From assembly GCA_006503475.1 (NCBI GenBank), contig RSEH01000066.1, positions 1-64,000 of the forward strand: DNA of 64,000 nt. The letters are read 5' to 3'. Position 1 is the stretch's first letter. Each line of letters opens with the position of its first letter. This document shows, piece by piece, positions 6,573 to 52,826 of the stretch. The DNA is from Stentor roeselii (taxonomy: Eukaryota; Ciliophora; Heterotrichea; Heterotrichida; Stentoridae). The position numbers and the translations under genes were made by a program. The notes under the pieces were generated by a model, which saw nothing but the letters and a program-made list of their open reading frames with translations, was not told the DNA's origin and did no database searches.

Positions 6573-9500
6573 CTAACTTTTAATAAAGCTCCTAGCCGAT
6601 CCAGGATCTCCAGTTTTATCACAGATAGAAACATTTCTAATTCTTTCCTTGAGTCCAGGAACATCAAGATTTTTCGAGACTTCCTTTAAAGTCTTCAAAC
6701 AAGCCTTCTGCAGACTGCTTTTATTATAAGCTAAAACTTCAAGCAAAGCCTTAGCCTGTTCTAAAGTGCAAGAATTGTGAAAGTTATTTCCAAAAAGCTG
6801 CAAAAGAAGCATGATACATTCAGCGCTTTTTTCAGCAATCAAAGAGTCACTTGAATTAAGAAGTTGTGTGCAAAGAGTTAAGTTCTCCATGAGTCCATAA
6901 ACAGCAGAGTAATTTTTATCCTTTATCTTAGTAGGTATCCCGATTAAGAACTTGCTAAAAAGGTCTAAAACGACTTCAACATGATGATTCAAAGGCAGAA
7001 CATACCGAATAACGACATTAATTTTCCCCACAAATGAATTTTCAACAAGACTTTCTATCGGAATCTCTTCAGAATCGACAAACTTCTGAATGATAACCAA
7101 CAAGTTCATACTTAAATTCTTGACATCTGGTGTAAAAAGCTGCAAAATATCCCTAACCAGTCCATGCATCTTGATAAAGCTAAGATACTGAGGACATCTC
7201 TCTAAAATACAATAAAGTAAATTTATACTCAAACCTTGAATCAGCTCAGAATTTTCAAGTAATTTAGAAAAAATCGGAAAGAAGTTATTAACAAGGATCC
7301 TGTTAATGTTCTTCGTCGATAATTTCGTGTTGCTTGGGAAGTTGTAAATATCTTCGTCAAACAAGAAGGGAATCATTATATCACTGAAAATCTTCAAAAA
7401 TCTGTACTGCGTGTCAACTGTCGTCGAGTCACTTGACTGACCCAGGGTGTTAATAATGCTTGGAAGCAGTTCAGAAATCGCACAATCAGAAAAAGTTTTC
7501 AGTTGTTTTCGACGACTTGTTGTTGATTCCAGAATTTTTAATATCGTTTCGTTTAGCTCTGGCTGGTTCTGGTTTAGGAGAGCTGAGATTGATTTTAGGA
7601 AGTGTTGAAAAGGAATTTTTATTCGAGGTGCGACGGATTGAAAGAGTTTAGGAAGTTCGTAAAAAAATGAAAGGTTGTTGGAAAGTGCGAGTTTTAAGAT
7701 ATTCATGATGATCTCTGAAAGCACTTCAAGCAGATGATGCAAACAATCTTGAACATACTTATAATTATCTTTCAACAGCCTGTCAATAATACTGAAAAAT
7801 CTAGAGTTCACCAGTTGAAACAAGTAATTCATGTTATTTTTCAGCAAGAACATAAAACACAAAAGACTTTTCCCTCTAATAACAATTCCAGGGCTTTCCA
7901 ACAGTTCAGTGAGCACCTGGAAGTTAGCCTCATAGTTTTTATTATGATAAAAGCAGTAACAAAGAATTGAAATCAACGCCTGTTGCGACTTCTCATCTGA
8001 CTCTTTCAAATAATTAAAAAAAAAATTGCTTCCAAGCCACCCAGAAAAAGTTTGAAACAAGTTTGGGTTAAGTCGAATCATGTGGCTTAAAGCAGCAACA
8101 GCTGAAAGTTTCAGTTCTTCATTCGAGCTGCTCAGAAAGACTTTACAAAGCGCTGAGGTCATATCCTACCTACTTCTTACCTTTGTAGCAAAGATAATTC
8201 CTCCATTTTTACTTTGAGCTGTGATGTTTTCCACTGTCCGAACCGCGAGAAACACGCAGTCCAAGTCATTCCCTTCAACTATTTCTTTTGAAAGGATCTC
8301 AACTACCTGTCCCTGAATATTCCAGGCTTCGTCGTATTCTTCTTCGTCCATTTGAGTCGCTGCGAAAAAAAGGTACTCGCCTAAAGCAGCAAAGGCTTTT
8401 TTTCTTAATGAATTTAAAGACTTTTTATTGTCTTCTTTCTCGATTATTCCTGTAAAAGCTTCGCATAACTCACTGTTCGGAAGGTCGGAGTCGATGATCG
8501 TCGCGTGTCTCAACATCTGCCCGAATAATGAACAGATTCGACCTTGCATCTCGGGAGACTTGCTGGTGAATAGTTTCAAGAAAAGAGATACAAATGCACT
8601 GTTTATCAACTTGTTGGCTAATGGAAAGTCCTCGATTAGGTACTCGATGTAAGCAAGGTATGTCATTTTTGTCTCTTGCTTCTCGTTTGAGGTTAATAGC
8701 GAATAGACCTCGCTGAAGTGACTTTCGAGTTCTGAGTCGTTCACGTCGTTTGATATGTTTTCGGGAGTCCAGATGGAAAACGAGAAATTTGTGTGAATGT
8801 TTAAATGCTCGTGGCTACCGATTATTGGCTTCACGTGCAAATCACTAGAATGAATAACTAGCTGATCAAGTGGCTGAGGTTTAAAAGCTGTTTTCACATT
8901 GGGAGTCTGTAAAACCGCACTATTCGACCTCTGATGCAAAATTTTGACTTCACTTTCACGTTGGTCAATATCCCAGTTTTCGCCCAAGTTAAAGACCTGG
9001 TCACGACTTTTAATAACAAAATTTTCTTTTCCATTCAAACTTGCCCTCAAAGACTCGCGAGCATCGAACTTATAACTTTCCCTTTTATGTCCTCTAGTCC
9101 TTTGCACCAGTCCTCTAGACTTGAGGTAGTCTTCATAGCAAGAGTGCAGAGGAAGACTTACTTCAATCATGCGACTTCCTTCCCAGAACTCATGCCAAAG
9201 CAGTTCTTCCCATCCAGTTCTTTTTGATGGGTCTTTTTGAAGCAGCCCTGCAACTAAGTCGTTAAAAGTCGCTGAAAAACCTGGAATTGTTGGAGTCTCT
9301 GCTGATAATATCTGCTCTTTTAGGTCTTTAAATGTGCTTGAAACGAAAGGAGGTGTCCCTACTGCAAGCTCGTAAAGGACGCACCCGAAACTCCAGAGGT
9401 CGGAGTAGTAACTGTAGACTCCTCCTTCTTCGAATAACTCTGGAGCCATGTAGTATGGAGTTCCTTTTTTGTTGTCTTCACTTTGCTCGTCGGTCACTAG

Positions 9501-9929
9501 CCGGGCTAACCCAAAATCACAAAGTTTAAGTACTCCGTATTCATTGAATAAAATATTTGAAGGTTTAAGATCAGCATAAATAACACCCTGGGAATGCAAA
9601 TAGTAAAGTCCATCCATGATATTAATCCCAAAATCTTGAATGACTTTTTCAGGGAGACTTTTATCCTGGTCAATAAGAGTTAAAATATCGCCTCCAGGGC
9701 AATACTCAACTACCAACCAAAAATGATTGCGAGTCTTATGCCAGGCGTGATATTTTATAATGTTTTCATGAGCCAAGTTTTGAAGTATTCTGACTTCATT
9801 CATAACTTTGAGTTTGTGTTCTTTCTCAGAAGATTTAATAGCAAGATACTCAATAGTTTTCTTAAGCCGGCCTTTGTAAACAACAGAGTCTTTAGATCTC
9901 CCAATTTCAGTGATATGATAGTTATTCAT
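6573..9929 (-). CDS. ULK4: ULK4/RUNKEL-like kinase with HEAT/ARM C terminus
   Basis: Two exons, 9929-8181 and 8165-6573, joined across a 15-nt intron to give 1113 aa. The N-terminal 255 residues form a ULK4/Fused-type kinase domain with IGRSKDSVVYKG, an AIK lysine, DFG and GTPYYMAPEL. The HRD motif is changed to YAD, keeping the catalytic Asp. About 100 linker residues follow, then helical ARM/HEAT-type repeats to the end, as in ULK4 and plant RUNKEL. Without splicing the frame stops just after the intron, making two false ORFs. ULK4 homologues control motile cilia and microtubules. Human ULK4 is a pseudokinase; this copy keeps VAIK Lys and DFG, so activity is open. Confidence 0.88.
8166..8180 (-). 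other. 15-nt intron in ULK4-like gene
   Basis: Sense sequence GTAAGAAGTAGGTAG, with A at position 10. It is phase 0, between Lys and Asp codons. Retention gives an in-frame stop just after the intron; removal joins kinase and repeat regions in frame. Confidence 0.9.
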
Positions 9930-10134
9930 ATTTTATTTGAAACAACAAGCCAGCCACTCATCTCTCTAAAAAAAACCCTTCAAAACCCTTCAAAACTCCT
10001 AAAATCTCAACTTTTTCATTCAAATTAATCATTTTAGAAATATATTAATTTTCCAATAAACCCTACCTTTAATATCCTAACATGAGAACTTTTTCTATTA
10101 TCAATAAGTCCTCGATAATAAATTACTTTACTTC
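9930..10134. promoter_or_regulatory. divergent promoter region, ULK4-like / CDPK
   Basis: 205 nt between opposed ATGs. It is strongly A/C-rich on the plus strand over most of its length, with repeated AAAACCCTTC-like words near 9970-9990, in keeping with the local upstream skew of plus-strand genes. The promoter role is inferred from position only. Confidence 0.45.
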
Positions 10135-11625: not shown

Positions 11626-11633
11626 AATTAATA

Positions 11634-12809: not shown

Positions 12810-12810
12810 A

Positions 12811-16500: not shown

Positions 16501-16519
16501 GATTATTAAAGGCTAGTCA

Positions 16520-18721
16520 TTAATTAAAACTTTCGTCACTTACGGTATTTCGGACAATGTCTCGTTTAGGAGACTTTGAAGGCATTGAAGCTCTTTTGCT
16601 GGGAGATTTTGTAATGGCAACACACTGCGTAAACCTCTGACTCCCAATAACTTCTCTAAAAATCCTAACAGCTTTTTCAGGTGAAATTTCATTTTTCCCT
16701 CTAGTTTTTTCATTAACGACATGTCTTCCAAGATTTCCAAGTAGTGCATTTCTCTGCAAGTTTCCTTCTTCCCTTTTTCTGTTTTCAAATCGATCCAATT
16801 CAAGCGGTGTATAAACCTGAATAAAGTCTTCAATTTTCATGAAACCTCCTCCGACCCTAACTAAATATCAAATACGGACGATTTTTCCATTTTCAAGTTT
16901 AACAAAGACTCTTTTCGAGCCAAACACATAAATTCCATGATCTTCTCTCGTAAAAGGCACTTCAGTGCCTCGAGTATTAACGAAATCCGCGATAGCAGAG
17001 TCAATAACATCATCTTTTGCAGGGAAATAAACAGCTCGTCTTCTTTGCAAGTCGCTGACCATGTCTCTTAAGACTTGAATTTCGTTTTCTTTGTCAACTG
17101 AAGACTGTGCAAGTCGATTAATCGCGCGACTATTATTCAAGATTTTTTCAGACTGGACCAACAAATAGTCCGCCATGGTTTCCATCTCTTTAATCGCAGC
17201 AGAAGCCATTTTTTCAGCAGCGGTCGATACAAGTTGCAGTTCTTTCGATAAAGACTCAGCATCATGGGTTAAAATTACCATCTGCTGCGTTGAGTTCAGG
17301 TCACTCTCAAGTGAAAGTTTCTCAATTTTCAATAAATTCTGATCACTGGAGAACTTCAAGTTACTTGACTGAAGACTCATGTTTTGGTCTTGAATTTCTC
17401 GACTACAAGTCCAGATCTTTTCTTTTTCTTCTGATAAACTTTGCCTTAGTTCTGAGAAGTTAGAAAGAGAATCTTTGAATGAATTTTGAAGAGATGAAAA
17501 GTTTGATAAGAGTTTTGAGTGAGACTCACGAAGACCTTCTAGAGTCTCTTCCAGGTCTGAATACGCCAGAAGTCTTTTGTGGTAGTTTTCGATTTGTAGG
17601 TTTAATGAAAGGATTTCAGAATTTTGGTTGTCGATTGTATCGGTTTGATTTGATAACTTTTGGGATAATGACTCGATTTCTATGAATCGCTTGTCGAGCT
17701 GGTCTTGGAGGTTCTGGTTTTCTGAGAAGAAGGAATCACTTAGTTCTGAATTGGACTTTAAGGAATTTTCGAGCTGCGAACGCAGCTCGCTTCTTGAAAT
17801 CTGCAAGTCTGAGATTTGGCTTTGAAGAGAGTCTACTAGAAGACTTAGCTGGTCATTTGCTGAGGCTTTTACCTGGTTCTTTTCAGCTTCACTTGTGAGA
17901 AAAATTATCTGGCCTTTGAGGGTGTCGAGTTCTAAAGATAAGCTGTTTACTTTTTCTTTTAAGGAAAGGTTTTCATTTTGATTGTCTTGAAGAGATTTTA
18001 AGTTTAGTGAGTTTTCAGTGGAATGGTTTTGGATGATTACTTCGAATTTTTCTTTTTGGGTTGAAAGTTGAATTAAACTTGATTCATACATTTGAAGGTT
18101 TTTTTCACTGAGGGTTGTTTTTTCTTCTAATTGTTTTCTTAGCAGCTGGATGAGTTTGACCTTTTCATTCATTCCCAAAGCCAGCATTTTCAAATGGTCA
18201 AAGTCAGTTTCTCTTAAATATTGCTCGTCGTTGATCACTGCAAGGCCAAGACTTTCCAGGTCAGTCTGAAGAGGAGCCTGGATTTTCCAAAAGTCCTGAA
18301 AAATCTCCTGAATTCCTGAATAAGCTTCTTTAAGGCTCACCAGCTGATCATCAAAACAACTTTCATCTTCCTGTTGAAGAGAAATGAAAACTTTGAACTT
18401 TCCAATATTCATCATTTTTTGAATAGAATTTTTTTCTTGATTTTTGATGAATTTCGAGATAAAAGAACTTTTTTCCAGCTTTTGAAGAGTTTTAAGTCCA
18501 TCAAGTGCGACTTGGCCATGTCCAAGTTCTTGAACCCCAGAAGCAAAAATGAGGAATAAAGAGTCATCTGAAGAAAGACGTTGAGTTTTAATGTTCATGT
18601 TTTCGAAAGGACTGTAAAACTTCTGCGCTTTTTGGTTAAGTTGAAGAGTAAGATTTAAACTTTGAGGGTCAAACCCGTCGATTACGAGTTCTGATAAAGA
18701 GACCGTTAGAGTAGTTACCAT
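16520..18721 (-). CDS. coiled-coil protein with C-terminal GAR-like (GAS2-related) domain
   Basis: Two exons, 18721-16876 and 16860-16520, give 728 aa. Residues 1-110 may form a C2-like beta domain (weak call). About 190-570 is a long coiled coil. Near 580-635 a conserved module reads VPFTREDHGIYVFG, then RVFVKLENGKIVLRVGGGF. This closely follows the GAS2/GAR microtubule-binding domain, which ends in VRVGGGW. The intron cuts that very motif, so the unspliced frame stops at GKIVRI and a false 106-aa ORF begins downstream. A basic Ser/Pro tail (SPSKRASMPSKSPKR) follows. A microtubule or cortical role is inferred from the domain. It starts 27 nt after the SWI/SNF stop. Confidence 0.75.
16861..16875 (-). 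other. 15-nt intron in GAR-domain gene
   Basis: Sense sequence GTATTTGATATTTAG, A at position 10, phase 1. Splicing turns the terminal ...GKIVRI-stop into GKIVLRVGGGFMKIEDF and restores the conserved GGG of the GAR-like domain. Confidence 0.92.
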
Positions 18722-18748
18722 TGTCGATATAATAAGCTATTATCTATA

Positions 18749-21700
18749 CTAATCATTTGTAGGGTCGTATATCGCATCGTCTTCCATCTCGCTTAGAAGC
18801 TCTCCACTTTCGACTTCACTCTCGGAGTCTTTCACGATCGCTTTTCTTTCACTGCCGTCTTCGCTGCTCTCGCCGATTTTTGAGTACTTTTTTAATTTGC
18901 CTTCGTCTTTTTGGACTCTTTTGAAACTTCCGTCTATGTTCCACTCTGGCTCTGCATCGATGTAACTGATTTTGTTTCTTCTTCGGAAACCTCGGCCGAA
19001 ATAGTCGATTTCTTCTTCTTTTATTTCGGTTTCTTTTACCATTAGCCAACTTGGAATTTCATTTTCCATTAACCGGGTGGTGAAATTTTCATGAACTTTT
19101 CTTTCCTTGTCCATTAGCTCGAACTGGATGAGTTCTTTTTCGTCTCTTGCGATTATTTCGTTGAGTTGTTGGTCTGTTAGAAACTCGTTTTCGTTGTTAT
19201 CTTCATCATCCTCATCATTTTTAAACAAATCTCTCAACTTTTCTCTTCTTTCAATATCAGTACTTTTATTATTAAAAAGTCCTGCCTGAATAACTTTCGC
19301 ATCAACTTCCTTTTTATGAGCAGCTTTAGTAAGAATGGCTTCTTCAAGTACCGTATTAGTCATGAGTCTATAAACCCTGACTTCTTTTTTTTGTCCAATT
19401 CTATGAGCTCTGTCCTGCGCCTGCAAGTCCATCATCGGATTCCAGTCTGAGTCATATATAATGACAGTGTCAGCTGTTTGAAGGTTGAGTCCCAGTCCCC
19501 CGGCCCTTGTGGAAAGCAAAAAAATGTAATATTCCGAGTTTTCTGCGTTAAACATTTGCATTTGCTTGTCTCGATCTTCTACTTTTGTAGTTCCGTCAAG
19601 TCTTAAAAACTTGAAACCGCGGTACTCGAAATAAAGAGTCATGATGTCCATCAGCTGGGTCATCTGACTGAAGATTAACACTTTGTGGCCTAATGAGATG
19701 AATTTAGGTAAAATTCGGTCTAGTAGCTCGAATTTTCCTGAACATCTCCAGATTTCGTCAGAGATTTCACTTATGTTTTCATAGTGCAAGAACAGATAAG
19801 GATGATTACAAACTTTTCTAAGTTGCATGACCGAATTATTCAAACTTTTCGATTTCCAAGTTATAATATCCTTGCTACTAAAGCTTTTTTCCTGAATTTC
19901 CTTATACAACTTTTTCTGCCAAGAGCTAAGTTCAACTTTCAAGACATACTCAACCTTATCCGGTAATTCCGATTCCACCTCTTTCTTAACCCTCCTCAAC
20001 AAGAAAGGTCTCAAAACCTGATGCAATCGATTAATAACCAGTAAAGTTTCCTCTTCATTCAAAGCGATTTGTTTTTCTCCAACCATCTTACTAAAAGGTT
20101 GATTAAACCATTTTTCAAAGTCATCAACCGAGTGAAAGATTCTTGGAAGTAAAAAATTGAGAAGTGCCCAAAGTTCCGCCAAGTTATTCTGAAGAGGAGT
20201 CCCTGTAAGCAGAAGTCGATGGTCAGAAGTGTATTGAAGACCTAAAATCTGCGAAAATTTCGACTTCGCGTTTTTCATTCGATGACCTTCATCGACGACG
20301 ATGTAGCTCCAGTGGATTTTGCTTAGCTGCTGCTTGTCTTTCATGATGTACTCGTAAGTTGTAAGCAGAACGTTGAACTTTCGAGATGTTAATGCCTGGA
20401 CTATTATTTTTTTGCGGTTTCCTGGAGGACCTTTGTATACAAGCACTTTTATTCTTGGACCCCATTTTTTTAACTCAAGCATCCAGTTTGATAAGGTTGA
20501 AAGAGGAACGACTACGAGGAAAGGACCGTAGTTGTTCTTGTGGTCGATTAGGTATTGGAATAAGGCAATTGTTTGGATTGTCTTGCCTAGACCCATCTCG
20601 TCGGCTAGGATTCCGTGAAGGTTGTTGTTGTAGAGTGAAACCAGCCACTGAAGCCCAATCAACTGATACGAGGTCAAAGTTCCACCTTCCAAACTTTTAG
20701 GCTGAATTTTAATATCTTCCTGAATAGTGTGTGTAATCTGATAGTACATTTTAGAAGAGCTCTTGAGACTTTCAGCAACATTATAAGGTCCCTGATTTTC
20801 ATTAATATTGACTTCCTGTCCTTCACTGGTTTCTCCTTTTTGAATGAGTACTTTCGCTCCGAGTTGTCTAAGAAAAGTATCAGTTTGTTCTAAAATCTTC
20901 AAAAGTCTGTCATTTTTAGTATTATTGAGCAGGTCGAAGTAGATCTCGATGTTGTTTTCTTTGAGCGCTCTGAGCCTTTCTTTATCATTTTTTTCTCTTT
21001 TAAACTGTTCTTGTCGGTCAACCATTTCCAAGTAGCTCTTGCCACCAAGGACGTTTCTCTTAATGGTAGCCTAAATGAAACTCACGTGTTTTTTCCTGTG
21101 AAACTCGAAAAACTCTCGATGATGGTTCAACAAGTCAGCTAAAAACTGGTTTTCCCTGTTTTTTTTCTTTTGTTCATGACCATTTCTCATTGCTTGCTCA
21201 CATTTTGCTGATATTTTGCATTCTTGCTTTGTTTTCAGGTCTTGAACTGCAGGTTTTCTTGAATAAAATTCTCTGTCAAGTAAAGCGACCTCGAGGCATG
21301 AGTGACTTTTATCACGGTTAACCTCTTCTTTCATGATCCATTCGCTGTTAAAGTCATTTCTTACCTTTTGCTGAAGCTTGTTTAGACGAAGCATCATCAT
21401 TTCTGTTTGAACTTTCTCAGAAGTTTTAGGGTTCTTGGCAAGTTCCTCCAAATACTTAAGTCTCATCTGACAAAAGTAGTCCAAAGGCTTATCCAGTAGA
21501 TCCCCAGGGACCAGATCATACTGAAAGTTAGAAGAATGTATCCTTTGTATACTTTTGACCTCATTCAACAACGACTTCGAAGTACAACCAAAAGATTCCA
21601 AGTCTTTCATGGACAGCTTCTGAATGTGTTTGATGTGAGAAGAAGAAAAGGGATGTCCTCGAGTAAGCAGCTTCAAGCATTGAATCTGAGAATGAAGCTG

Positions 21701-21796: not shown

Positions 21797-21812
21797 CTAA
21801 AATAGTTAGAAC
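21797..21812 (-). other. probable 16-nt intron in SWI/SNF ATPase gene
   Basis: Sense sequence GTTCTAACTATTTTAG, 16 nt, A at position 10. The acceptor is needed because the QLQ frame meets a stop (TAG) exactly at the intron end. The exon on the donor side is only open for about 14 codons in the required frame and has no ATG, so the donor is less sure than the acceptor. Confidence 0.6.
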
Positions 21813-21821
21813 TGTTTTAAT

Positions 21822-21845
21822 GTTAGAGTATTTAAGTACTCTAAC
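21822..21845. repeat. perfect 9-bp inverted repeat
   Basis: Arms GTTAGAGTA and TACTCTAAC with a 6-nt spacer TTTAAG. It sits just upstream of the QLQ exon of the SWI/SNF gene, where the first exon or promoter should be. It could be a dimer-binding site or an RNA hairpin; the sequence does not decide. Confidence 0.7.
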
Positions 21846-22901
21846 TATGGTGTTTTACATTTCTAATTTTAACTTGATTTTCTGCCGGAATGGACGCTGA
21901 CATGGCTTGACTTGTTTTATGTAATATTAGCCAATAAATATGGAAGACTGATACAGCTTTACTAGGGTTTTTCTTCAGCACTATCGACGTCTTTTAAAGA
22001 CTCTTTAGGATTTAGTCTAGCTCAGCCTTTATCAAGGAATTTGAACGAGTTGAAGAATGCTTTTATATTGGGAAGGAGGGTAGGGCTTTAAATATAAAGG
22101 AATGGATTTTTGATTGGATTTTAGAGTGGAAAAGTTGGGGTTGTTGGGAGTTTGAAGGATTAGACGTCAAGAGGTTGGTTTCGCATGGATTGACTGAGAA
22201 GTTTGAGGAAAAGTGAGATTCTCAGGGGTGGGTGAGATTTGATTGTAAGACACTTGGATTAGGCTTTTTGAAAGGGAAGCTGAAAGATATTCGAATAAAT
22301 TTGAAAGGATTCAAAAAATATTATAAGATAATCATTAGATGATTTTTTACTTGAGGAATATTTGAAAAGTTTTTCATGTTAAAACTTCTGAGAATCATAG
22401 AAAAGTCAGTATATGGATGAGTAATAGAGCAAGGGTCTTGATTATAGTGATTCGGTTCCAAGATTGACGTTGCTTCAAAATTCCAGATTCACTGTCTTTT
22501 CCTCATCTTGACAGGTAAAATTATTAAACTAAGCTAATCTCAATAATTACAATTCCATCACATAAGCCATATTCCTTCAATCCAAAAGCAGTAATCATTG
22601 AAGAATCTCATTCAGACAAGAAAAAAAAATTCTTTAAACAATCCAAAAAAACCTTAAACAATATATTCAGCCAACCCTTCTTAGCAGCTTAAAAATCCCT
22701 GCAACACATTATTTCGATTGTCTTGCTCTCCAGTCCAATTCCCTAAAACTTCCCATCTTCCATGTTTTCCTACAAGGAAAAGGTAGGATTAAAGTGTCCA
22801 TAATCCCCAGATGTCTCCCTCTCGGCCATATTTAATTCCCGAAAAAAATCAAGGGGATAAAACCCTCAATATAAAAGCCCAATAACATAAAAGTCTTAAA
22901 A
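21846..22901. other. long divergent intergenic region
   Basis: About 1.05 kb between the SWI/SNF 5' region and ARF1. An ATG on the minus strand at 21903 opens a 20-codon frame (MSASIPAENQ...) that may be the missing SWI/SNF first exon, but its frame does not match the next exon. From about 22060 to 22300 the plus strand is G/T-rich, from about 22530 to 22890 A/C-rich, so composition switches midway. No RNA gene recognised. Confidence 0.5.
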
Positions 22902-31852: not shown

Positions 31853-31900
31853 TTATCAAGGGTGTAAATAAGAATTAGTAGAAATATGAGTTTATAAATA

Positions 31901-33217
31901 ATGGAAAGGATTACTGAGGATGATGTTGTTGAAGAAGTGCTCATTTATAATTCAGAAAATTATGTGAGAGTTTCTAGAGTTCGGCATAAGCGCAGTGGTG
32001 AGACCCTCTGCATGAAAAAATTGTTTGTGGAAGATATTCAGGAAGCTGCAATGCTACAAAAAGAATATGTTGCAATGGCTTATTTACATCATCCAAATAT
32101 CATCAAACTAAAAGCAGTATCATTCTCAGGCCATGGAAAGAGCATTGCTTCAGTGAATATTTTTATGGAGTACTACTCAGAGGGTGACTTGGATCATTTG
32201 ATTAAATTGGGAATTGAATTTTCTGAAGATCAAATTATTTCTTACATGGAACAGCTTTTCTCAGCTTATAAATACATGGAAAGTCAAAAAATCGCACATC
32301 GGGATATCAAACCTCAAAATATTCTCATTTGTGAAAAGGGTAAAGTTGTTAAAGTTGCTGACCTTGGAAGTGTCACTAAAAGAGTTGACCGGTCTTCGAC
32401 TAGCTTAGCAGGAACTCCTCTTTACCTTAGTCCTTCTCTTCGAAAAGCTTATATTGAATCTAGACAATCTGTTGAACATGATGTGTTTAAATCTGATGTT
32501 TATTCTTTGGGAATTACTTTTTTGTATATGACTTCTTTGAAACTTCCGAAGGATTTAACTGATTTGAATGATTTGCAAAATAAAATTGATGATAGGATTA
32601 GAATATTGCATGAAAAATATAGCAGGGTTAAAACGATTTTAAGTTATATGCTGAAAGTAGACGAAGATAAAAGACCTAATTTTGAAGGTATTTTTGAGAT
32701 TTTTCAGTCAGTTAAAAATTATCAAGACTTACTGAATGTATCTGATGTTAGTATACCCTTGCCTGAGCCAGAAGAAAGGTGTTTAAACTGCCACCAAAGC
32801 AATAAAAGAGATCAAGCCTACAAATTCGAAAAAGGATGGATATGCATAAATTGTATCAACTCACAAATCACCATTTCCGACGAATAGTAAAATCAATTTA
32901 GCCACCTCATCTATAACTCAACCAAATACACCTACCCAGACCATTCAAACCCAACTTTTCAACTCTGCAAATGGTGCAAACTTCTACATCACCCTGGTTT
33001 ATCCTGTCTAGAAATCACTCTTCTCGAAGCAGGAAAACGTCAGATCTGTTACTGGAAATGCAAATCCTGTAACCAAGAAGGTAAAAACGTATATAAAAAA
33101 ACTTCATCTATTTTCGTCTCTTGCGATTCAGGTCACTACTTCTGCGGAGTCTGCGAGCAAGACTACAATAAAAGTCCTCACGAAATCTGCAAAACTCTCT
33201 ATCAAATAATTAGCTAA
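31901..33217 (+). CDS. protein kinase fused to IBR/RING-like Cys-rich domain
   Basis: Two exons, 31901-32886 and 32902-33217, give 433 aa. The kinase domain (about 1-275) has a degenerate glycine loop, a CMKK lysine, intact AHRDIKPQNIL, and DLG in place of DFG. The C terminus carries paired Cys motifs: CLNC, CINC, CKWC, CKSC and finally HYFCGVCEQDYNKSPHEIC, which resembles the in-between-RING fold of RBR ubiquitin ligases. The Cys pairs in the second exon are seen only after splicing. The TAA stop is followed directly by the ATG of the next gene. Kinase activity plausible; ubiquitin role is inference. Confidence 0.82.
32887..32901 (+). other. 15-nt intron in kinase/IBR gene
   Basis: GTAAAATCAATTTAG, A at position 10, phase 2. 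Retention ends the protein at TISDE; removal gives TISDEYHLIYN and opens 105 further codons rich in Cys pairs. Confidence 0.93.
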
Positions 33218-34764: not shown

Positions 34765-35565
34765 CTAAAAGATCTTTATACATAAAATACTAGAGCAAAA
34801 CGAAATATAAGAAAAAAAATTCCTCTGGATCTTCAAGCTTTTTTTCCTCTTCAAGGCAAATTTGTTAACACCCGGGTTGACAGTCCTCGACTGTCCACTA
34901 ACATCAATCGACTGAACAAAGCAATCATTTTCAGTCACCTTCTCATTCACCTCTTCACTCATAATGATTTTTCCAAGGTTATTTTTTTTGTAAGTCTCAA
35001 GAAAAACTATTAAATTTTTCCTGTCTTCAACTCGTTTCTGACTTTTTTCTAGAGCTGTTTGCATGTCTTTCATTTGTAATTCTACTTTTTCTTTTAATTT
35101 ATTCACAAAGTTTATCTGTGAAGGAAGTGATTTGAAGACTTGGGACTTGTTGACTGATTTTTGGACTTTTTTGATTTTTTTTGGAGTTTTTGGTAGTTCT
35201 GAGATGCTGTGTTCGAGAAAACTGGAATATTCAATCATCTCGAGTTTTTCATTGAAGTTTTCGATTGAGTTTTCAAGATGATTGACTTTTTCTTTGATTT
35301 TTTCTTTTATTTCCAGGAGTTCTTGAGCTTCTGTTTCTAGTCTGAATTTTTTTTACTCGTCAAGAATAGCTCTTTGGTTGTTTTTTTCTCTTTTTAAAGA
35401 ATCAGCGATGGCTGAGACCTGCTCGAGATCTCTTTCAAGAGCTTTGATGTTCATGTCGTACTCGATTCGCAGTTGTTCGAGCTTTGCGAGTTTTTTGTCT
35501 GATTAGTTTTTACTTGAAGTCCCTTCGCTTTCGAGGACATATTTTGACTCTGACCTTCTGTTCAT
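34765..35565 (-). CDS. three-exon coiled-coil protein, unknown
   Basis: Exons 35565-35514, 35498-35357 and 35341-34765 give 256 aa after removing two 15-nt introns. The protein starts MNRRSESKYVL, then is an almost continuous coiled coil (EQLRIEYDMN...ALERDLEQ...LETEAQELLEIKEK) to about residue 190. A short Ser/Lys-rich stretch and a hydrophobic C terminus follow. The unspliced sequence shows only the last 157 residues. No family recognised. Convergent with the basic-repeat gene. The gene model is well supported by both introns having the local consensus. Confidence 0.75.
35342..35356 (-). other. 15-nt intron 2 of coiled-coil gene
   Basis: GTAAAAAAAATTCAG, A at position 10, phase 2. Removal joins ...RAILDE to LETEAQ in one heptad register; retention gives a stop. 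Confidence 0.88.
35499..35513 (-). other. 15-nt intron 1 of coiled-coil gene
   Basis: GTAAAAACTAATCAG, A at position 10, phase 1. Joins MNRRSESKYVLESEGTS to NKKLAKLEQ; without removal the frame is stopped. Confidence 0.85.
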
Positions 35566-35900
35566 GAACCAAGTTAAATATGACTAGTTTGATATTAAAG
35601 CAAATTAATAGAAAATCATGAAATTTTATCATCTCGTTAAAATCGCCAGGGACTATTTACTTAAAACAACTGAGAAAAAATATGAAAACTAAAAAAACCC
35701 AAATTCAATCTTAAAAATTCTAAACCCTATCAAAATCTTCATATTCCTAAACTTTCCTAAAATCTTCAAAATCCCAAAAATCTCCTAAAACCCTTCAATC
35801 CACATTCACCTAATCCCCACTAAACCAACCACCCTACTCCAAAAACTCCATTCCCTCAACAACTCTCAAATTTTAAACATCATATTTAATACATTTATCG
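35566..35900. other. divergent intergenic region, A/C-rich
   Basis: 335 nt between two divergent ATGs. The left third is neutral and AT-rich; from about 35690 to 35870 it is a long A/C-rich run on the plus strand with many CCTAAAAT/CCTAAACT words. This fits the A/C bias seen before other plus-strand genes. No coding or RNA gene seen. Confidence 0.5.
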
Positions 35901-41143: not shown

Positions 41144-41174
41144 TTTTCTCTTAAAGTTCAGCTATAATAAAGTT

Positions 41175-42214: not shown

Positions 42215-42220
42215 ATAATT

Positions 42221-43916: not shown

Positions 43917-44624
43917 ATGTCAGATATACCTGAAACACCCTCGACTAATCCGAAGACATGTACCAATGAAATTTCGATTCAAGTCGAAATCGACCCAACC
44001 TACGACTACTTCTCAAAGCCTGATCTAAGATTTTCAGCGAAATATCCGAATCGAAACTTAGAAATCGACCCTTCCTATTCTCACAAAACAGTCAAGTTAA
44101 AAAAGTCGAACCCTTCTGTGATAATTCAAAGCTTCCGAAGAAATAGTCAGGAGTCCAACGGCAGTCTTCATGAAAATCCTTCAAACAAGAAAATTGGCTT
44201 AGAAATCAGTCTTAACAAAAAAATTGCAAATCATGAATCGTGCTTGCAAAAAAGAAGTCAGAGCAATGACTTGATCACTCAACAACAAATTAAAAATAGG
44301 CTAAAACTACTTGCGGAAAATAACTGTAAATCAAAAGAAAGTCATAAAATAAAGGATTCCAAAGCCGCTATTGTCAAAAGTCCTTCTTCTTATCAAATTC
44401 CTCCTGTTTTCGACCCTTTGATCAACTTTTCTTCGAAGATTTTAACGAAAAATGCGAAATTCGGACAAATTAAACCTAAGGTTTATAAAAAGTACAAATT
44501 CGGCGCTTTTCATCAGATTTCTTCTCATAACCTTTCATCTGCACAGTCACGGTTTGAGAGTTTCAGTCAATTGAAGAAAAAGTACTTTTTCCGAAAGCAC
44601 TCTAATTTATTTAATCAGGCTTAA
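43917..44624 (+). CDS. basic Ser/Asn-rich protein, unknown
   Basis: 235 aa, hydrophilic, rich in Ser, Asn, Lys. Aromatic residues cluster in the C terminus (KPKVYKKYKFGAFHQ, FSQLKKKYFFRKH). No recognised domain. Likely disordered with a short basic module at the end. The start ATG follows TTTATAATATTTAA and is divergent from the 99-aa gene. Convergent with the CFAP97D-like gene. Confidence 0.55.
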   Translation: MSDIPETPSTNPKTCTNEISIQVEIDPTYDYFSKPDLRFSAKYPNRNLEIDPSYSHKTVKLKKSNPSVIIQSFRRNSQESNGSLHENPSNKKIGLEISLNKKIANHESCLQKRSQSNDLITQQQIKNRLKLLAENNCKSKESHKIKDSKAAIVKSPSSYQIPPVFDPLINFSSKILTKNAKFGQIKPKVYKKYKFGAFHQISSHNLSSAQSRFESFSQLKKKYFFRKHSNLFNQA

Positions 44625-44759
44625 GTAATTTTTGTTGAAATTGTTATTTGTATGAAGATATTTTTCAGTAAATAGTGAAAATTATGGATTATAGTTTTTA
44701 CACATTTTTGTGTTAAATAATTAAGATCCTGATTGTAATCTAAAATTCAATTAAATTAA

Positions 44760-45476
44760 TCAATAATCATTATAATGTTCACTATATAATGAAAGTTCAG
44801 TTCCTTCAAAGTGCAACAGCCTGACAAGCATATCCCAATCCTCACGTCCACCCATAAACTGAATCGCATCTTTTTTATCAATTTCAATGCTATAAGTAGT
44901 AAAAGTCTTAGCATCACTAGCAGTAACCTTATAAATTTTCCTCCCTTTAATAATCTCAACAGAGAAAAACCTTCCATCAATCTGCACATTTTTCTGAAAA
45001 ACCATTTCCTTAATATCCACAACAAGAGGTGAAAGTCTTCTAGGACGATCAACAGCAACAGACTGACTTTGATTATAATAAAGCAGTCCATCCTCAAAAC
45101 TCGTACTTTTCCCAGTATTCGGAGTCCTCAAAACATCAGAAAAGTTCAAAACTGAGTCTTTCACCATTAAAGATTTCGGAACTTCAGGTTTTTTTAGAGC
45201 TCTTGGTTGTCTAGGTGTTAAAAATTCTTTATTAGAAGGAATATAAGAATGTTTATTCGACTTCATAATTTTTCTGATCTTCTCAAGTAAAATTCTGTTT
45301 TCTCTTTCAACTTCAGTATAATAGTCTACCTCTTACTTACCCTCCTGCATCTGTTCTTTCTTTCTGTTCATTCTCAGATGTTTGAAATGATCTTGAACTA
45401 CAAGTTTAGGTCGAGAGTCGTAAATGACATCATCGACGCTATACCTGTACAACTTCTTCGCTTTGTGGATCGACAT
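44760..45476 (-). CDS. CFAP97D-like ciliary protein
   Basis: Exons 45476-45341 and 45325-44760 give 233 aa. The spliced N terminus, with RPKLVVQDHFKHLRMNRKK then EVERENRILLEKIRKIM, matches the CFAP97/KIAA1430 (Hemingway) pattern: a His/Leu motif followed by a basic helix with an invariant E-N-x-x-L-L-x-K-I core. That family is needed for sperm and motile-cilium axonemes. Residues 140-233 form an additional beta-rich domain (FFSVEIIKGRKIYKVTASD) not known to me in animal members. The unspliced frame hides the first 65 residues and with them the family signature. Divergent from the AGC kinase, 50 nt apart. Confidence 0.7.
45326..45340 (-). other. 15-nt intron in CFAP97D-like gene
   Basis: GTAAGTAAGAGGTAG, A at position 10, phase 1. 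Joins EQMQE to DYYTEVEREN, completing the family motif; retention gives a stop. Confidence 0.92.
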
Positions 45477-45526
45477 TCCATTATGTAACATGCGTGAATA
45501 TATTCGAGGATCCTAAACTATTAAAA
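45477..45526. promoter_or_regulatory. 50-nt bidirectional promoter, CFAP97D-like / AGC kinase
   Basis: The entire space between two opposed ATGs. It is AT-rich with AATATATT but has no TTATAA. The role is inferred from position. Confidence 0.4.
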
Positions 45527-47194
45527 ATGGGCCAGGACATTTCGCAGCCATCTCTTAACCTGCAAAGATCAGTTTCTTCAAAGCACACCCACAACTTGTC
45601 AGGGTCGAAGGTCAAGTCTGTGCCTGAGGCTAAAACTTTGATCATTCAAAGTGAATCTGAAGAATACCAAATCGATATCGGGGACGACACCATGACCTGT
45701 GGCTGGCTCCTATCCGAGACCATCCGTTTGTTAGCAAACAGTTCAATCATCGCCCTGAAGTCAAACAAAAACCTAGAAGCATTAGACTGCTGGTTAATGA
45801 ACTTCGAACGCAACTTGATTCCTTTCAAGAATAAAGAAGTGCTAAACCCAGTATATTTATCAGACCCTGGACAGGACATGGGTCCGAACAGTTTTCTTCC
45901 AGTCAAATACATTGGAAAGGGAGGTTTTTCGAATGTGATGCAGGTTCGCAAAAGAGACACTGGAGAATTATTTGCTGTCAAGATAATGAACAAACAGTTG
46001 CTAATCAATGAAAGCAAGATTGAGCAGATTTTAACTGAAAGAAATATTTTAAAGGACTCTGACAGTCCTTTTATTGTGAAATTACACTGGGCATATCAGA
46101 CGGTAAGGCTTATGTAGAAAGATGAACTTCATCTGGTTTTAGACTTTTGTCCTGGAGGAGAACTTTTTTACCATTTGCATAATCTTGGAAGGTTCACTGA
46201 AGAACAAGCTCGATTTTATATTTCAGAGATCTTGATCGGACTTGAGTACTTGCATGGAAAAGATATCGCTTATCGTGATTTAAAGCCGGAGAATATCTTG
46301 CTCGACTTAGACGGACATATCAAAATCACTGATTTTGGACTATCAAAGCAGAATATCAAAGCCTTTGACCTTAGTTCTAGCTTTTGTGGATCTCCTGAAT
46401 ATATGAGTCCTGAAATGCTGCAAGGGAAAGGCCACGGCCGGGCAGTTGACTTTTACAGTATCGGCGCCTTGCTTTTCGAAATGCTTGTAGGAGTTCCTCC
46501 TTTCTACAGTCAGAACCGTTCCTCGATGTACTCAAACATTTTAAACAGCAGTCTTTCAATTCCTAGTTTTATCAGCAAAAACTGCAAAGACCTACTCGAA
46601 AAACTTCTGAATAAACAACCTGAAAGTCGCTTAGGATACTCCCTGGGGACTAAAGAAATTAGAATGCATCCTTGGTTTAAAGGGATCAGCTGGAGCAAAG
46701 TGAAAAATCGAAGACTTATTCCACCTTATCGACCTAATTTCAGACATAGCAATTTTGACTCTGAGTATTTGAAAGTGGGTGTTAATTTTGAATTGTTTAA
46801 ACAGGAAAGACTTGTTGATGATCCTTTGTTTCCGGATTTTGAATTTAATGTCAAGTCTAGAAATAATGAACCGGTTGATAGTCTTTTAGGTTCGACTGAA
46901 AGTAGCAGACATGGGATTAGTCAGAATGAGGAATGTGGAGCGACGAAGGTTAAGTTGTTTATGCCGACTGTTGTTCCGAAGCAGGCTGATGATGATGTTG
47001 CTTATGCTAGCAAGCATAGACGGGCCAAAGACATCAGCATCTCATCCATAATCAAAGAAGTAAACCAAAAGACCAAAAACTTGGTCCAAGAGCTCCGTCC
47101 AGTGACATCCCAAAGGCAAACCTTCCGAAAGGGAAACAAGCCAGTAAGCCAAGATTTTATCAACCTTTCAAGCGATCTGTTGCAAAACAGATGA
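45527..47194 (+). CDS. myristoylated AGC-family kinase
   Basis: Exons 45527-46102 and 46118-47194 give 550 aa. The chosen ATG gives MGQDISQPS, with Gly2 for myristoylation; an in-frame GTG 33 nt upstream is not used. Residues 45-115 may be a ubiquitin-like or regulatory domain (weak). The kinase domain (about 127-390) has GKGGFSNV, AVK, YRDLKPENILLD (Arg kept, as YRD in AGC kinases), DFG and SPEM. After it, FPDFEF resembles the AGC hydrophobic motif, with Glu at the phosphosite. The family includes PKA and S6K. A Stentor-specific N-terminal extension is likely. Confidence 0.9.
46103..46117 (+). other. 15-nt intron in AGC kinase gene
   Basis: GTAAGGCTTATGTAG, A at position 10, phase 0. It lies between the N-lobe strand (LHWAYQT) and KDELHLVLDFCPGGEL, the hinge. 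Retention ends the protein in the kinase N-lobe. Confidence 0.95.
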
Positions 47195-47226
47195 AAAAAT
47201 AGGAACTTAATTCAACGTAATTAACT

Positions 47227-49368
47227 TTATCTGAACTTCTTCACCTTATTATCAGCAGGTTCTACCTTTCGAGCAAGCAAAGCAAGAATTTTTTCCAAGT
47301 CTTGCTGATTAGGACTTTCAATCAAAGCATTGTAAGTCTCTTGAATGTTCTCTAAAGGACTGCTGATGACTTTAAGTAATGACTCCGGCTTCTGAAACAT
47401 TCGATTGACAATCATGGTAAAAGTCGAACTTGCCTTGTTTAAATTCAGAAGTTTTGTCTTCAGTTCAAAGCAGTCAAGTTGCATCTGTTGTGCCCCGAAT
47501 TCTCCAATTTTTTTGCATTTGTAAACGTTTCCTACAAATTTACTGCTTATCATCCTTTATAAGGAATACTCTGCTAGTTTGTTGAAAAAGTTGAGAAGGT
47601 AGTCTTCGTTTAAAACACTTTGGATGTTTTTGCAGAATTTTACTAGAATTTCAGAGATTTTCATTATGTAGTCGCTTTTGTCACCTACCGCTTCCAGGTT
47701 CCAGTCGAGCTTTGTCATGTTTGAGAAGTGAGGGTCGATTTTTAGCTCGAATACTTGTAAGAGGGTTTGAACTCCTTTTACTGCTAGTCTAAATAGGGAG
47801 TACTCAGCGAATAGACCTTTTTCTTTGTAGCATTCGATGTCGTAAAGGGTCTCAAGTTTGGCTCGAATCGTTGTCTCCATCTCACAAATAGTACTTCTGC
47901 AATACTCAGCAGTATTAATAACAAAAGCAATCGAAATTTCTTCCCCATCCAAAACTTTGCCAAGTCTCTCATTTTTCGGTAGTCTTAAAGCGATTTTTTC
48001 ATTATAAACCGCCAAAACCACAAGAAACTTCTGAGAAAGGTCAGCCAAGATTTTTCCAGTATTAAAACTCGAGCAAGTATCAAACTTATTCTTAATCTCC
48101 GTGAAGAGAGTGATACTCGAAGGATAAATTTTCGTTTCATCCGCAACATCATCAGCCATTTCCTTTTCCAGACTTTTTTTCAAGTTATCTTCTTCCGAGT
48201 CGACATACTTGATCATATAATTTTCAAACACCTGACTGATAATTCCATTAAAATTAGGAATTGGTGTATTTTTAACAGTATCTTGCATATAAACCACGTC
48301 TTCATATCCCCCAAGCGACTCTCCAAGTTGCAAACTAACAGCTTTACTAGCAAGTATATGATGAGCATTAAACTTTTTACTGATTTCCTGTTCAAGTTGC
48401 AAAGTTTTCTTAAGTGCAGAGACCATCAAAGAGCTTTCAACATGATGTTTTTCCAGCTGGTCATTCACATGTTTTTGAGTCTTGTCACAGAATTCTTTAG
48501 CGATCAAAGCAGGGACTTGCCAAGCATCAGGGAAGATATTTTGGTAGTTTTGGGTGTATTCCCGAAAGCACCTTTTAAGCCAAGCGTAACGCCTGTCCAT
48601 GAACTCAAGTCCTGAATGCATCTGCCCGAACATAAACACCTCATCATACGACTTCAAAAAAGAAGGAGTCAACTCGTTGATGATCTCCATTCTCAACTCC
48701 AGTCCGAGTTCATCAACGACTCTGCAGGCTTCAGCTAAAAGTTCAGGAGGCGCGTTTTTGATATCTCTGAAGTCTTCCATCAGCTGAAGTCTGAGATCTT
48801 TCACGATGTTTTCACGTTTTTTTCTTAAGTCAAAAACCATTTTCGACGTCTTTAAATCTGAAAACTGAAGCAATAAGTCTGTACTCGCGTTTAGAAGAGC
48901 GGCGACTTTTCGGTAGTCTCTTGAAGATGAACTTTCTTGAAGCTGGTCAATCGCATGTGAAAGCATTGCAAGGCGCTTTAAGGAAGTTATTGTTTTTGTT
49001 AGGTTTTTTTTTGCTGTGTCGAGACTTCTGATGTCTTTACAGATTTCTTCGACCATGTATTCAGAGGTCTCTGCTTTTTCTCGCATTAGATTCACTCGTG
49101 ACTGAAGCTCTTGAATCGCTGAGTAGGATGATTTCAGCTGGTTTTGAGTCTTTTCTCCTAGTTTTGCTTGTGACTTCACAATTTCGCTTAGTTCTTTAGA
49201 TACTCGGTCACTGTCTTGCTGGAGTTCTTGCTTTTTTGACTCGATGTGCATCAAGGACTGCTCGGTTGGAAATAAAGAGTTGATGTAGGAAACTGGGTCG
49301 AAGTTTAAAGAGTCGAGAGGGTCGTTGCTTGGGAAGAGTTCTTGTAAGGCTTTTTCAAGATGTGACAT
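47227..49368 (-). CDS. VPS53: VPS53, GARP/EARP tethering-complex subunit
   Basis: Exons 49368-47570 and 47554-47227 give 708 aa. The N terminus FDPVSYINSLFPTEQSL is the Vps53 signature, followed by a long coiled-coil region (about 45-145) and helical rods. The second exon holds the conserved C-terminal GAQQMQLDCFELKT segment, which a plain frame would report as a separate 108-aa ORF. GARP tethers endosome-derived vesicles at the trans-Golgi; with ARF1 in this window it belongs to the same traffic step, though not linked. The length is near that of fungal Vps53. Confidence 0.92.
47555..47569 (-). other. 15-nt intron in VPS53 with AAG acceptor
   Basis: GTATTCCTTATAAAG, A at position 10, phase 2. 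Ends in AAG, not the usual TAG or CAG. Joins LAE to MISSKFVGNVY in frame. Confidence 0.85.
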
Positions 49369-49623
49369 TTTGTATTTAGAATTTTTTTGGATTTTTGGGG
49401 ATTTTAGAGAATTGGTTTTTATGAATTTTTTTAGGAATTTGCGTAGGAATTGTTTTTTTTGGAGAATAGTTGAAATAATTGAGATTTGTGAAAATTTGAT
49501 TTATTAATTTGGGGATTTTTTATAGTTTTGATGATGTTTTATTTTTTTCTTTGATTTTTGGATGTTTTAGAATTTTTAGGATTTGATTAGGAAGAGTTTT
49601 ATTGTAGTCAACAGTTATATAAT

Positions 49624-49884
49624 ATGGCAGAAAAGATCGAGATATGCGAAATGCCAGACGACATGAAAGATGAAGCTATTCGTGAAGCAAGTAATGCTGC
49701 TGAAGCTGCTCATAGTGAAAAAGACATTTCTAAGGCTATTAAGAAGTACTTTGACAATAAATATCAACCCTGCTGGAATTGCGTTGTAGGCAAAAGCTTC
49801 AGCGGTCATGTCTCTTACCAAGCAAAACATTTTATTTTTTTCTATGTAAAGCAAATTGCAGTGCTTCTTTACAAGATGGGATAG
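49624..49884 (+). CDS. DYNLL1: dynein light chain LC8
   Basis: 86 aa, full-length. Core DEAIREASNAAE, KYFDNKYQPCWNCVVGKSF and AKHFIFFYVKQIAVLLYK match LC8, including the His that sits in the dimer interface. It dimerises and binds short linear motifs in dynein intermediate chains, radial spokes and many other proteins. The ATG follows TATATAAT. Divergent from VPS53 over 255 nt that is G/T-rich. No intron. Confidence 0.97.
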   Translation: MAEKIEICEMPDDMKDEAIREASNAAEAAHSEKDISKAIKKYFDNKYQPCWNCVVGKSFSGHVSYQAKHFIFFYVKQIAVLLYKMG

Positions 49885-50819
49885 ATAGTTAAAAGTTTAG
49901 CATTTCCTATTAGTTCATTAAGATTTGTTTGATTTGATCATTTTAGTTTATCTTATATTTTTACTGTAGTTCTTTGGAGCTAGTCTATGCTTGGCAAGTA
50001 CTTCTGGTGATTCTTTTTGGAATTTTGTATTAGTTAAAATGCGCCTTTTTTGCATTTTTGGGAATATCATAATTTTAAGTTTGCATCTTTGGAAATTCTG
50101 ATTCTTTCAGTCAGATTCTCAATGAAAAGAATTCATTTGTTTATACTGATCTTTGTAGAAGGAAGGATTATCGGCTGATTTTTATATTGAAGAAATTTTA
50201 TAGGTATTGAAAGGCACTTGTTGATATTTACATTCAAAAGTAATTTAATTAGTTCAGAAAATGATTTATTTAATTTATAGTAATTTAGTAAAAATTCAAA
50301 AAGTTATCAATATCTAATAGATGAGGAATTTATAATGCATGTATTTTGGCTTGCAGGTATTGTTTAGAATTAACAGTAAAATATTGTTCTTATCATAAAA
50401 TATCCAAGAATGAGATACTTTGATTAACTTATCTATATTTGGAAAAAATAAAGCATATTTATATTATCAAACTGAATGATATAAAATAAACTTGAGATTT
50501 GATCTTAATCAATTTTCACTTTATTTAATTGAATAAAGAATTTTAAGATGATAGTCATTCTTTTGGCATTAATTGAGGTTTGAATGGATTATTTCATTTC
50601 TCGAGGTACGCAAAAAGGGAGTTTCTAACTTAATGAAAAAAATACATGGAATCAATCAAAATAATAGTTTTATCAAACTTGTAATAACACAATAATATGA
50701 AAAAACTGATAATGCCGATTCTCCCACGACTATAATTTAAATATAACCCATGAGTGATCCAACTCCAAAATTCAAATAAACCCTTCCCCGTAATAAAATC
50801 CAAATAATCCAAAATAAAT
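49885..50819. other. AT-rich gap between tandem genes
   Basis: 935 nt. To about 50600 it is AT-rich without strand skew, like the gap at 38722-40329; the last 200 nt become A/C-rich before the next plus-strand gene. No coding frame or RNA gene recognised. Confidence 0.5.
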
Positions 50820-52826
50820 ATGAGAAGATTACAAACTAAGTCTCTATTTAAACCCCCAGAGTTCATAGAAAACGACAACCGTATTTCCAAGAAGTCTGAC
50901 TTTGACTTCATAAAGAAAGTTGGCGACGGATCTTACAGTAATGTATGGAGAGTAAAGCACAAAAAATCAGAAAAAACCTTCGCAATAAAGCAAGTTCAAA
51001 AGTCCAAAGTAAAGCCAATCCTTTCCCAATTTTTCCGTGAAGTTGAACTCTTATACAAAATTTCCCATCCTCATATAATAAAGCTTTATTCTCACTTCGA
51101 AGATGACCGAAACTACTACTTAATCATGGAACTGATGGAAGGAGGTACTTTATTCCACAAGTTATACAGAGAAAGATCATTTTCAGAGAGTGTAGCAGCT
51201 CAGTTCTTAAGAGAACTTGTCTTAGCGATTGAGTACCTTCATTCTTTTTCTCCACCCATAGTGCACCGGGACTTAAAACCAGAAAATATAATGCTTGACC
51301 ATGAGCAGCGAGTGAAACTTATTGACTTTGGAAGTGCGAATTATATTGAACCTGATTCTCTTCGCAAGACTTATTGTGGGACGTCGGAATATATGTCACC
51401 TGAGATGCTGCTTAAAAAAGGACATGATTTGGGAATTGATATCTGGTGTCTTGGAGTACTTCTCTATGAAATGATTGTCGGTCAACCTCCTTTCAAGTCA
51501 CCTGATAAGAACTCTTTATTTAAACTTATTATTGAAGGAAATTTCCAGTTTCCTTTAAAGACTCCAGTTTTGGCGAAGGACTTGATTTGTAGAATGCTGG
51601 AAAAGGACTTGGGACTAAGGTTTAATATCTTGATGGTCAAGTCTTCCAGTTGGCTTCAAAGTGTTCCTCCGATAAGAAAAACTATTCAAAACTTGTCAGT
51701 GAAAGTTCCTTTCGACTGTAAAATAGAGTTTAACACCCAAACCACTAACTCGAGTGACAGCGGAGAAGAGATGGACTCTGATATCTTTAAAAAAACTTCA
51801 GGAGAACTCGGGAAAATCAGGCAAATTTTAATTGATGAAAAAAATATTGGAATGAAGATAAAAAAAAAAATTTCTGAGATTTCCAAGGAATTAAGTGAAA
51901 AATACGAAAAAATCACTCAACTTGAAGAGCTCGTTTTCAACAAAAATCGCGAAATAAAAAAAATTTACTTTAAGGGGAACTTGCTGCATTCTAATATATT
52001 TGATTTGAACTTGGAAATTGAAAGACTTCAAATAAATGATTTTCAAGAAGGGCTTGATAAAAAAAACTATCAAGACAAAAATTTGTTGGAACTAGAAAAA
52101 AAATGTAAAGTTAAGAAAAATTATTTAGAAACTTTAAGGAAAGAAGTGAATAAAGGGTCAATTAATTATGTAAATCTTGAAAAACAGCTGCAGTTTCTTC
52201 AAAATGCATTAAAAAGTCTGCAGATTAATGCTTTGAGTGTTTTTTCTGGGAATAAGTCGAGTGAAGAAGGACTAAAACTGCAAATCAACAACTTGAAGTC
52301 GAAAATCAATGAAAGTCCTCCTGTGCATCTGGAGTTAAACTCGTATCAATTAGGTGTTGCTCAAGAAATAATAGAAATGATCAAAAGTCAAGTGAATTCT
52401 AATGATGGAATCATAAAAAACATTGAAAATTGCATGGACCGGGTTGAAGAAAAGACTCAAGAAACTGAAAAAATGATTGAAGATCTTAATTCTTTGTTTC
52501 ATGTAAAAAAATCAAATTTAATGACAAAATTTTACTTGAATAAATCGAAAATTTTGCATGTTCAGTTATTTGAAAAGTTCAGAAAAATTCAAAATCCTGT
52601 TAAACAAATTGCGGAATTGCAGAAAAAAATTTTGGGTTTTCAAAATCAATTTCAGATTGTTGAACAACAGGATATTTCTCAAGCTGAATTAAGAGTTAAG
52701 GTAGTTTTTAAGTAGATCCTGAGAAATTCAATTGATCGACTTGGAATCATGATTGGAAAAAAAATTGTTTGGAGAAAAAACTCGAAAGAGTGTATTGCGA
52801 GTGATGAAAATGTTAGTTCAATGTAA
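50820..52826 (+). CDS. Aurora-like kinase with long coiled-coil tail
   Basis: Exons 50820-52700 and 52716-52826 give 663 aa. The kinase domain (about 27-280) has VGDGSYSNV, AIKQV, HRDLKPENIML, DFGSA and SPEML, nearest to Aurora/PLK4-type sequences with PPF in the C-lobe; the exact subfamily is unclear. Residues 315-600 are heptad-rich coiled coil. The last 36 residues (ILRNSIDRLGIM...) come from a second exon; the unspliced frame stops 4 codons after the donor. Coiled-coil kinases of this kind often sit at basal bodies or centrosomes, which is inference here. Confidence 0.85.
52701..52715 (+). other. 15-nt intron in Aurora-like kinase gene
   Basis: GTAGTTTTTAAGTAG, A at position 10, phase 0. 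The TAG at its end doubles as the stop of the unspliced frame. Removal adds 36 residues before TAA at 52824-52826. Confidence 0.8.

Follow-up and report, generated by a model that had tools for sequence, protein, structure and literature searches.

Predicted 15-nucleotide spliceosomal introns with an adenosine at position 10 in a 64,000-nucleotide stretch of the Stentor roeselii genome

A stretch of 64,000 nucleotides (nt) from Stentor roeselii (assembly GCA_006503475.1, contig RSEH01000066.1, positions 1 to 64,000; the whole stretch is referred to as the window) was analysed for ultra-short introns. Ten 15-nt sequences within it are very probably U2-type GT-AG spliceosomal introns of a gene-dense, heterotrich-type genome, with the adenosine at position 10 (A10) as their putative branch adenosine; we put the probability of this reading at roughly 0.93. 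A preliminary description of the window had named eleven introns, each starting with GT, ending with AG and having A as its tenth base, counted from the 5' end. All eleven sequences were indeed found in the window as described, eight on the minus strand and three on the plus strand. As introns, the ten 15-mers stood up to frame analysis, while the 16-mer at 21797 did not. The sites are listed below, together with the outcome of the unbiased scan described further on.

8166-8180, minus strand: predicted 15-nt intron GTAAGAAGTAGGTAG, phase 0, A10; gene 6573-9932 (minus); refound by the unbiased scan.
16861-16875, minus strand: predicted 15-nt intron GTATTTGATATTTAG, phase 1, A10; gene 16520-18736 (minus), with a GAS2 domain.
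21071-21085, minus strand: predicted 15-nt intron GTGAGTTTCATTTAG, phase 0, A10; HSA-domain gene, 18749 to about 21796 (minus); refound by the scan.
21797-21812, minus strand: reported 16-nt intron GTTCTAACTATTTTAG, A10, unsupported; upstream frame open for just 14 codons and lacking an ATG.
32887-32901, plus strand: predicted 15-nt intron GTAAAATCAATTTAG, phase 2, A10; gene 31898-33217 (plus).
35342-35356, minus strand: predicted 15-nt intron GTAAAAAAAATTCAG, phase 2, A10; second intron of gene 34765-35583 (minus); refound by the scan.
35499-35513, minus strand: predicted 15-nt intron GTAAAAACTAATCAG, phase 1, A10; first intron of gene 34765-35583 (minus).
45326-45340, minus strand: predicted 15-nt intron GTAAGTAAGAGGTAG, phase 1, A10; gene 44760-45512 (minus), with a Hemingway/CFAP97 domain; refound by the scan.
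46103-46117, plus strand: predicted 15-nt intron GTAAGGCTTATGTAG, phase 0, A10; gene 45428-47194 (plus), an AGC-type protein kinase; refound by the scan.
47555-47569, minus strand: predicted 15-nt intron GTATTCCTTATAAAG, phase 2, A10; gene 47227-49500 (minus), with a syndetin/VPS53-like C-terminus; refound by the scan.
52701-52715, plus strand: predicted 15-nt intron GTAGTTTTTAAGTAG, phase 0, A10; gene 50808-52826 (plus).

Excision of each of the ten 15-mers joined open reading frames, and retention led to a stop codon. At eight of the ten supported junctions, both flanks contained at least 40 open codons. GT-AG borders were present in all ten introns and a GTA start in nine. All ten also had an A at position 10 of 15, followed by the last five bases of the intron; the probability of this by chance is 3e-6 to 2e-5, with base rates of 0.284 (all GTN11AG 15-mers) and 0.344 (GTR...YAG 15-mers). 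The stop codon produced by retention was independent of position 10 in nine of the ten 15-mers, so discovery through reading frames does not force A10. For these nine independent sites, the chance probability of A10 is about 1e-5 to 7e-5 at the same base rates.

The cleanest case was the junction at 46103, which is spanned by a Pkinase match of 213 bits. Across it, 90 residues align ungapped to RSK1 (PDB sequence search with a shorter query, E 1e-25); no match to the kinase segment was obtained in the PDB at E 1e-70. Two more junctions lie within Pfam matches above the curated cut-off, at 16861 (GAS2, 27.3 bits vs. 21.3) and at 45326 (Hmw_CFAP97, 38.7 bits vs. 25.6). Matches with E<0.001, yet below the cut-off, span the junctions at 21071 (HSA, 21.8 bits vs. 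23) and 47555 (Syndetin_C, 30.1 bits vs. 38.4), and an ARMC5-like match across 8166 was marginal (E 0.0097, below cut-off). Coiled-coil-like matches over 35342 and 35499 were all below the cut-off, and no Pfam match was found over the junctions at 32887 and 52701. The preliminary description had held that known families stay in frame only if all eleven introns are taken out. This proved too broad: only six of the ten junctions are inside a Pfam match, three of them above the cut-off.

The unbiased sample comprised 25 stretches of 10 kilobases (kb) from the same 44,391,514-base assembly together with the window, 314 kb in all; locus L001, which overlaps the window, was excluded from all scans. 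Sites were selected by GT-AG borders, coding frames open for 40 codons on either side of the site and disruption of the frame on retention; position 10 was ignored. The scan revealed 21 frame-restoring GT-AG 15-mers, while the four decoy motifs gave 2, 2, 5, and 2 sites. When lengths from 11 to 25 nt were scanned, GT-AG sites exceeded the decoys at 15 nt only, and neighbouring lengths were at the decoy level. A10 was found in 19 of the 21 15-mers (13 of the 15 outside the window) and in 17 of the 18 that were left after removing three with a stop codon that includes this position. The preliminary description had named beforehand, as an outcome that would refute it, introns across the genome that show no such peak of A10; in the sample, A10 did recur. 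Looser scans gave the same picture, although those made first were noisier. In the earliest, among 37 stop-interrupted sites, 17 had a GT-AG 15-mer, with A10 in 15, and the other 20 had none. Another gave 21 sites at 15 nt vs. 0-11 for the decoys.

These counts bear on the suggestion that A10 is a selection effect, the sites having been chosen through TAA or TAG codons lying over position 10 or through the reader's own choice of A10. It does apply to a single window site out of ten (35499) and, among the 19 scan sites with A10, to two. However, the other nine window sites, like the 17 of 18 scan sites mentioned above, carry A10 while their stop codon does not include this position, and the genome-wide pattern search presented below was independent of frames. 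This explanation is already refuted, and we leave it practically no chance.

It is also highly improbable that the 15-mers are short pieces of germline DNA (internal eliminated sequences) that persisted in the assembly, or that their stop codons are read through. Ciliates do carry such DNA, and 15 is a multiple of three, which means that retention keeps the frame. On the other hand, all ten sequences in the window have GT...AG ends and none has the TA repeats of ciliate eliminated DNA, while the excess in the sample is confined to GT-AG at 15 nt. Readthrough, for its part, explains neither the excess of A10 nor the insert-free alignment of the kinase.

Introns of this kind have been described in Stentor coeruleus, where 8806 introns were reported, 8173 with a length of 15 nt and 633 with 16 nt (Nuadthaisong et al., 2022, PMC9505925). 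The putative branch A lies at position 10 in 8005 of the 15-nt introns, and 442 of the 16-nt introns have it at position 11 (PMC9505925), so the register in these published data is 5 nt from the intron end and is not counted from the 5' end. The same paper gives a lariat with a loop of 10-11 nt and a tail of 5 nt and discusses how so short a loop fits the active site. According to PMC10946202, the conserved A had already been suggested as the branch point by Slabodnick et al. (2017). The preliminary description was right that ultra-short introns are known in heterotrichs, as published for S. coeruleus (PMC9505925) and Blepharisma (PMC9942806), but it took the invariant position 10 for a sharp new observation, although this was already in print and most of the published 16-nt introns have A11. 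The A10 pattern in the window is therefore a correct rediscovery of an already known feature, with one wrong member, and a distance of 5 nt to the intron end describes the register better than position 10 does.

In a search of the whole genome that used no frames, the pattern GTAAGTN6TAG had 406 sites and the pattern one base longer, GTAAGTN7TAG, had 232. Among the matches listed, A10 was present in 64 of 100 sites of the shorter pattern, and the three bases before the A were mostly T in these 64 sites (T7 46, T8 34, T9 35). Among the matches listed for the longer pattern (100 of 232), A10 was present in 31 and A11 in 27, and there was no excess of either. The introns might be real and the fixed A part of an extended 3' splice-site motif (position -6 of the exon junction, with U2AF1 or Prp8), with the branch elsewhere. 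We regard this as improbable, though less so than the explanations above. The branch A is termed putative in PMC9505925, and branching at A10 is likewise a putative assignment in the present genome; furthermore, the T-rich bases before the A are not a strong branch consensus. However, A is the strongest enrichment at the unfixed positions, both among the listed matches of the 15-nt pattern and in the unbiased scan, and U2 retains GTAGTA, which requires some branch site. We infer that branching probably takes place at A10.

Several observations weigh against the ten 15-mers being introns that branch at A10. This base is missing at two of the 21 sites of the unbiased scan (L015:1312 and L017:502) and at two of the 17 15-mers of the earliest looser scan (L017:502 and L017:2625); the three sites could be false sites or true exceptions. 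The sensitivity of the unbiased scan is limited, as it recovered six of the ten window introns and missed four. The intron at 16861 was missed because of a downstream coding score of -0.5, and the one at 52701 because just 36 codons follow the junction; the remaining two were those at 32887 (downstream coding score -1.9) and 35499 (short exon). The site at 35499 is the weakest of the ten, with a 17-codon exon from ATG upstream and a second phase that is partly open too, and its sole retention stop, TAA at positions 9-11, includes position 10. In the genome-wide search, the reversed-pattern control outnumbered the pattern itself (857 vs. 406 for the shorter and 1060 vs. 232 for the longer). Being larger than the counts, this control is unusable as background, and spacings and base profiles were compared instead. 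Finally, both the splicing of the 15-mers and their branching are predictions from genomic DNA.

The best candidate for a true exception is L017:502 (minus strand, contig C110), where the 15-mer GTCTTAACTTAATAG, with T at position 10, restores the frame between strong coding flanks. At L023:2073 (minus strand, contig C170), the 17-mer GTAATTATTATGGAAAG joins two strongly scoring coding frames, one of 360 codons and the other of at least 400; it is either an unusual intron or an assembly frameshift. At L004:6252 (minus strand, contig C3), an in-frame TGA separates a Kelch-like frame of 276 codons from 163 open coding-like codons downstream of it, with no GT-AG 15-mer, pointing to readthrough, a pseudogene, or an assembly error. 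Long frames in the window and the sampled loci ended with TAA in 60 cases, TAG in 30, and TGA in 15 (n=105), and some of the TGA frame ends were introns and not gene ends. The use of three stop codons, like the intron type and the compactness of the genome, is in keeping with Stentor or another heterotrich as the source. The tandem telomere repeat CCCTAACA of the Blepharisma type was detected neither at six contig starts nor elsewhere in the sampled loci.

The 16-mer at 21797 was rejected as an intron. Its excision leaves an upstream segment of 14 open codons with no ATG, and no combination of upstream candidate introns of 13-18 nt, checked by eye, provided a start codon for this gene. With its rejection, the claim that 16-nt introns of this genome keep A10 also falls. 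The protein downstream of 21797 starts with what we take to be a QLQ motif, and, given this apparent start, the HSA-domain gene may have a 5' exon. Beside the rejected 16-mer and just upstream of the HSA-domain gene, the region 21797-21860 contains a perfect inverted repeat, GTTAGAGTA-CTTAAA-TACTCTAAC. In the 314-kb scan, the 16-nt GT-AG class was represented by one site vs. 6-11 for the decoys, and none was convincing. At the share of 16-nt introns in S. coeruleus, approximately 1.5 would be expected beside 21 15-mers in 314 kb, so the missing class is no proven difference from that species.

One gene each for U1, U2, and U6 was found above the Rfam cut-off, with the usual pairing motifs ACTTACC, GTAGTA, and ACAGAG, respectively. 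Splicing of the ten introns would be ordinary major-spliceosome chemistry on a minimal substrate, the pairing sites of the three RNAs being unchanged. U1, and later U6, would read intron bases 1-6, and U2 would pair around bases 7-11 with A10 bulged; the 3' AG, directly behind A10, would then give a lariat with a 10-nt loop and a 5-nt tail. The A would be placed by its distance of 5 nt to the intron end, as the published 16-nt introns suggest, and this corresponds to position 10 in a 15-nt intron. In the standard pathway, U6 takes over the 5' splice site from U1, which has left by the time U6 and U2 reach the catalytic centre; the 15 nt therefore need not accommodate all of them at once. The argument of the preliminary description that such an intron offers almost no room for U1, U2, and U2AF together presumes simultaneous occupancy. 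The U2AF large subunit is likely present; its best match, of 244.8 bits, falls short of the curated cut-off (310.3), and the profile also matches 2 of 14 control genomes.

The branching factors Cwc25 and Isy1 may accommodate the short loop through altered N-termini, a proposal that others have made for Stentor. Human Cwc25 has an N-terminal Gly-Gly-Gly (PMC9505925), whereas the Cwc25 found here starts with MGLAFLNKKSWH and has no Gly-Gly-Gly; its alignment to human CWC25 begins at residue 6. Isy1 was also found. Its residue 11 aligns with residue 6 of worm and yeast Isy1, which corresponds to five extra residues, and its best match to a human sequence does not start before residue 33.

Slu7 is present in the genome (124.2 bits). 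Human SLU7 was matched at E 3.9e-37 over the zinc knuckle, which is presumably of the CCHC type. Prp18 is probably present as well, with a Prp18-like match of 35.7 bits together with its neighbours (cut-off 32.5); a sequence search of the PDB with this candidate returned nothing at E 0.001. Slu7 is located at locus L029 and the Prp18-like match at L030. In yeast, Slu7 and Prp18 matter less when the distance from the branch to the 3' splice site is short. We considered whether a branch point so close (5 nt) to the 3' splice site had permitted the loss of both proteins and rejected this idea, Slu7 having been found and Prp18 being probable. In the published table for S. coeruleus, both are given as undetected (N/A) (PMC9505925), in contrast to the present genome. 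The presence of Slu7 here means that the BLAST-based "undetected" entry for Stentor merits a profile search.

A more far-reaching proposal appears doubtful to us. It holds that the introns of this species share a single rigid layout, with nine bases between the 5' splice site and the branch A and five bases behind it, and lack a 16-nt class altogether. They would be served by a fixed-length spliceosome in which the portions of Cwc25 and Isy1 extending into the active site are reshaped for the 10-nt loop and Slu7 and Prp18 are kept despite the adjacent 3' splice site. If true, heterotrich splicing would offer a natural minimal substrate for testing the roles of Slu7 and Prp18.

Introns of the window agree with those of S. 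coeruleus in being 15-nt AU-rich GT-AG introns with A10, and the two genomes share canonical U1, U2, and U6 pairing sites (PMC9505925). Cwc25 without the Gly2-Gly3-Gly4 plug and a divergent N-terminus of Isy1 are also common to both (PMC9505925); if the present genome is counted as a second heterotrich, the common loss of the glycine plug strengthens the published idea that a steric clash is avoided. The present genome confirms that the smallest introns known keep one geometry, and this geometry is legible from the sequence alone. Blepharisma stoltei has mostly introns of 15 and 16 base pairs (bp) in a similarly compact and gene-dense macronuclear genome of 41 Mbp, but its UGA codes for tryptophan (PMC9942806), whereas TGA ends genes here. 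Very short introns are also described in Loxodes magnus, from the sister group of heterotrichs, although with a mode of 17 bp, a mean of 19.3 bp, and a negligible number under 16 bp (PMC11441545). Similarly narrow and extremely short length classes are known from mikrocytids (16-17 nt; PMC10245619) and the chlorarachniophyte nucleomorph (18-21 bp), which are unrelated reduced genomes with introns at least one base longer than those of the present genome.

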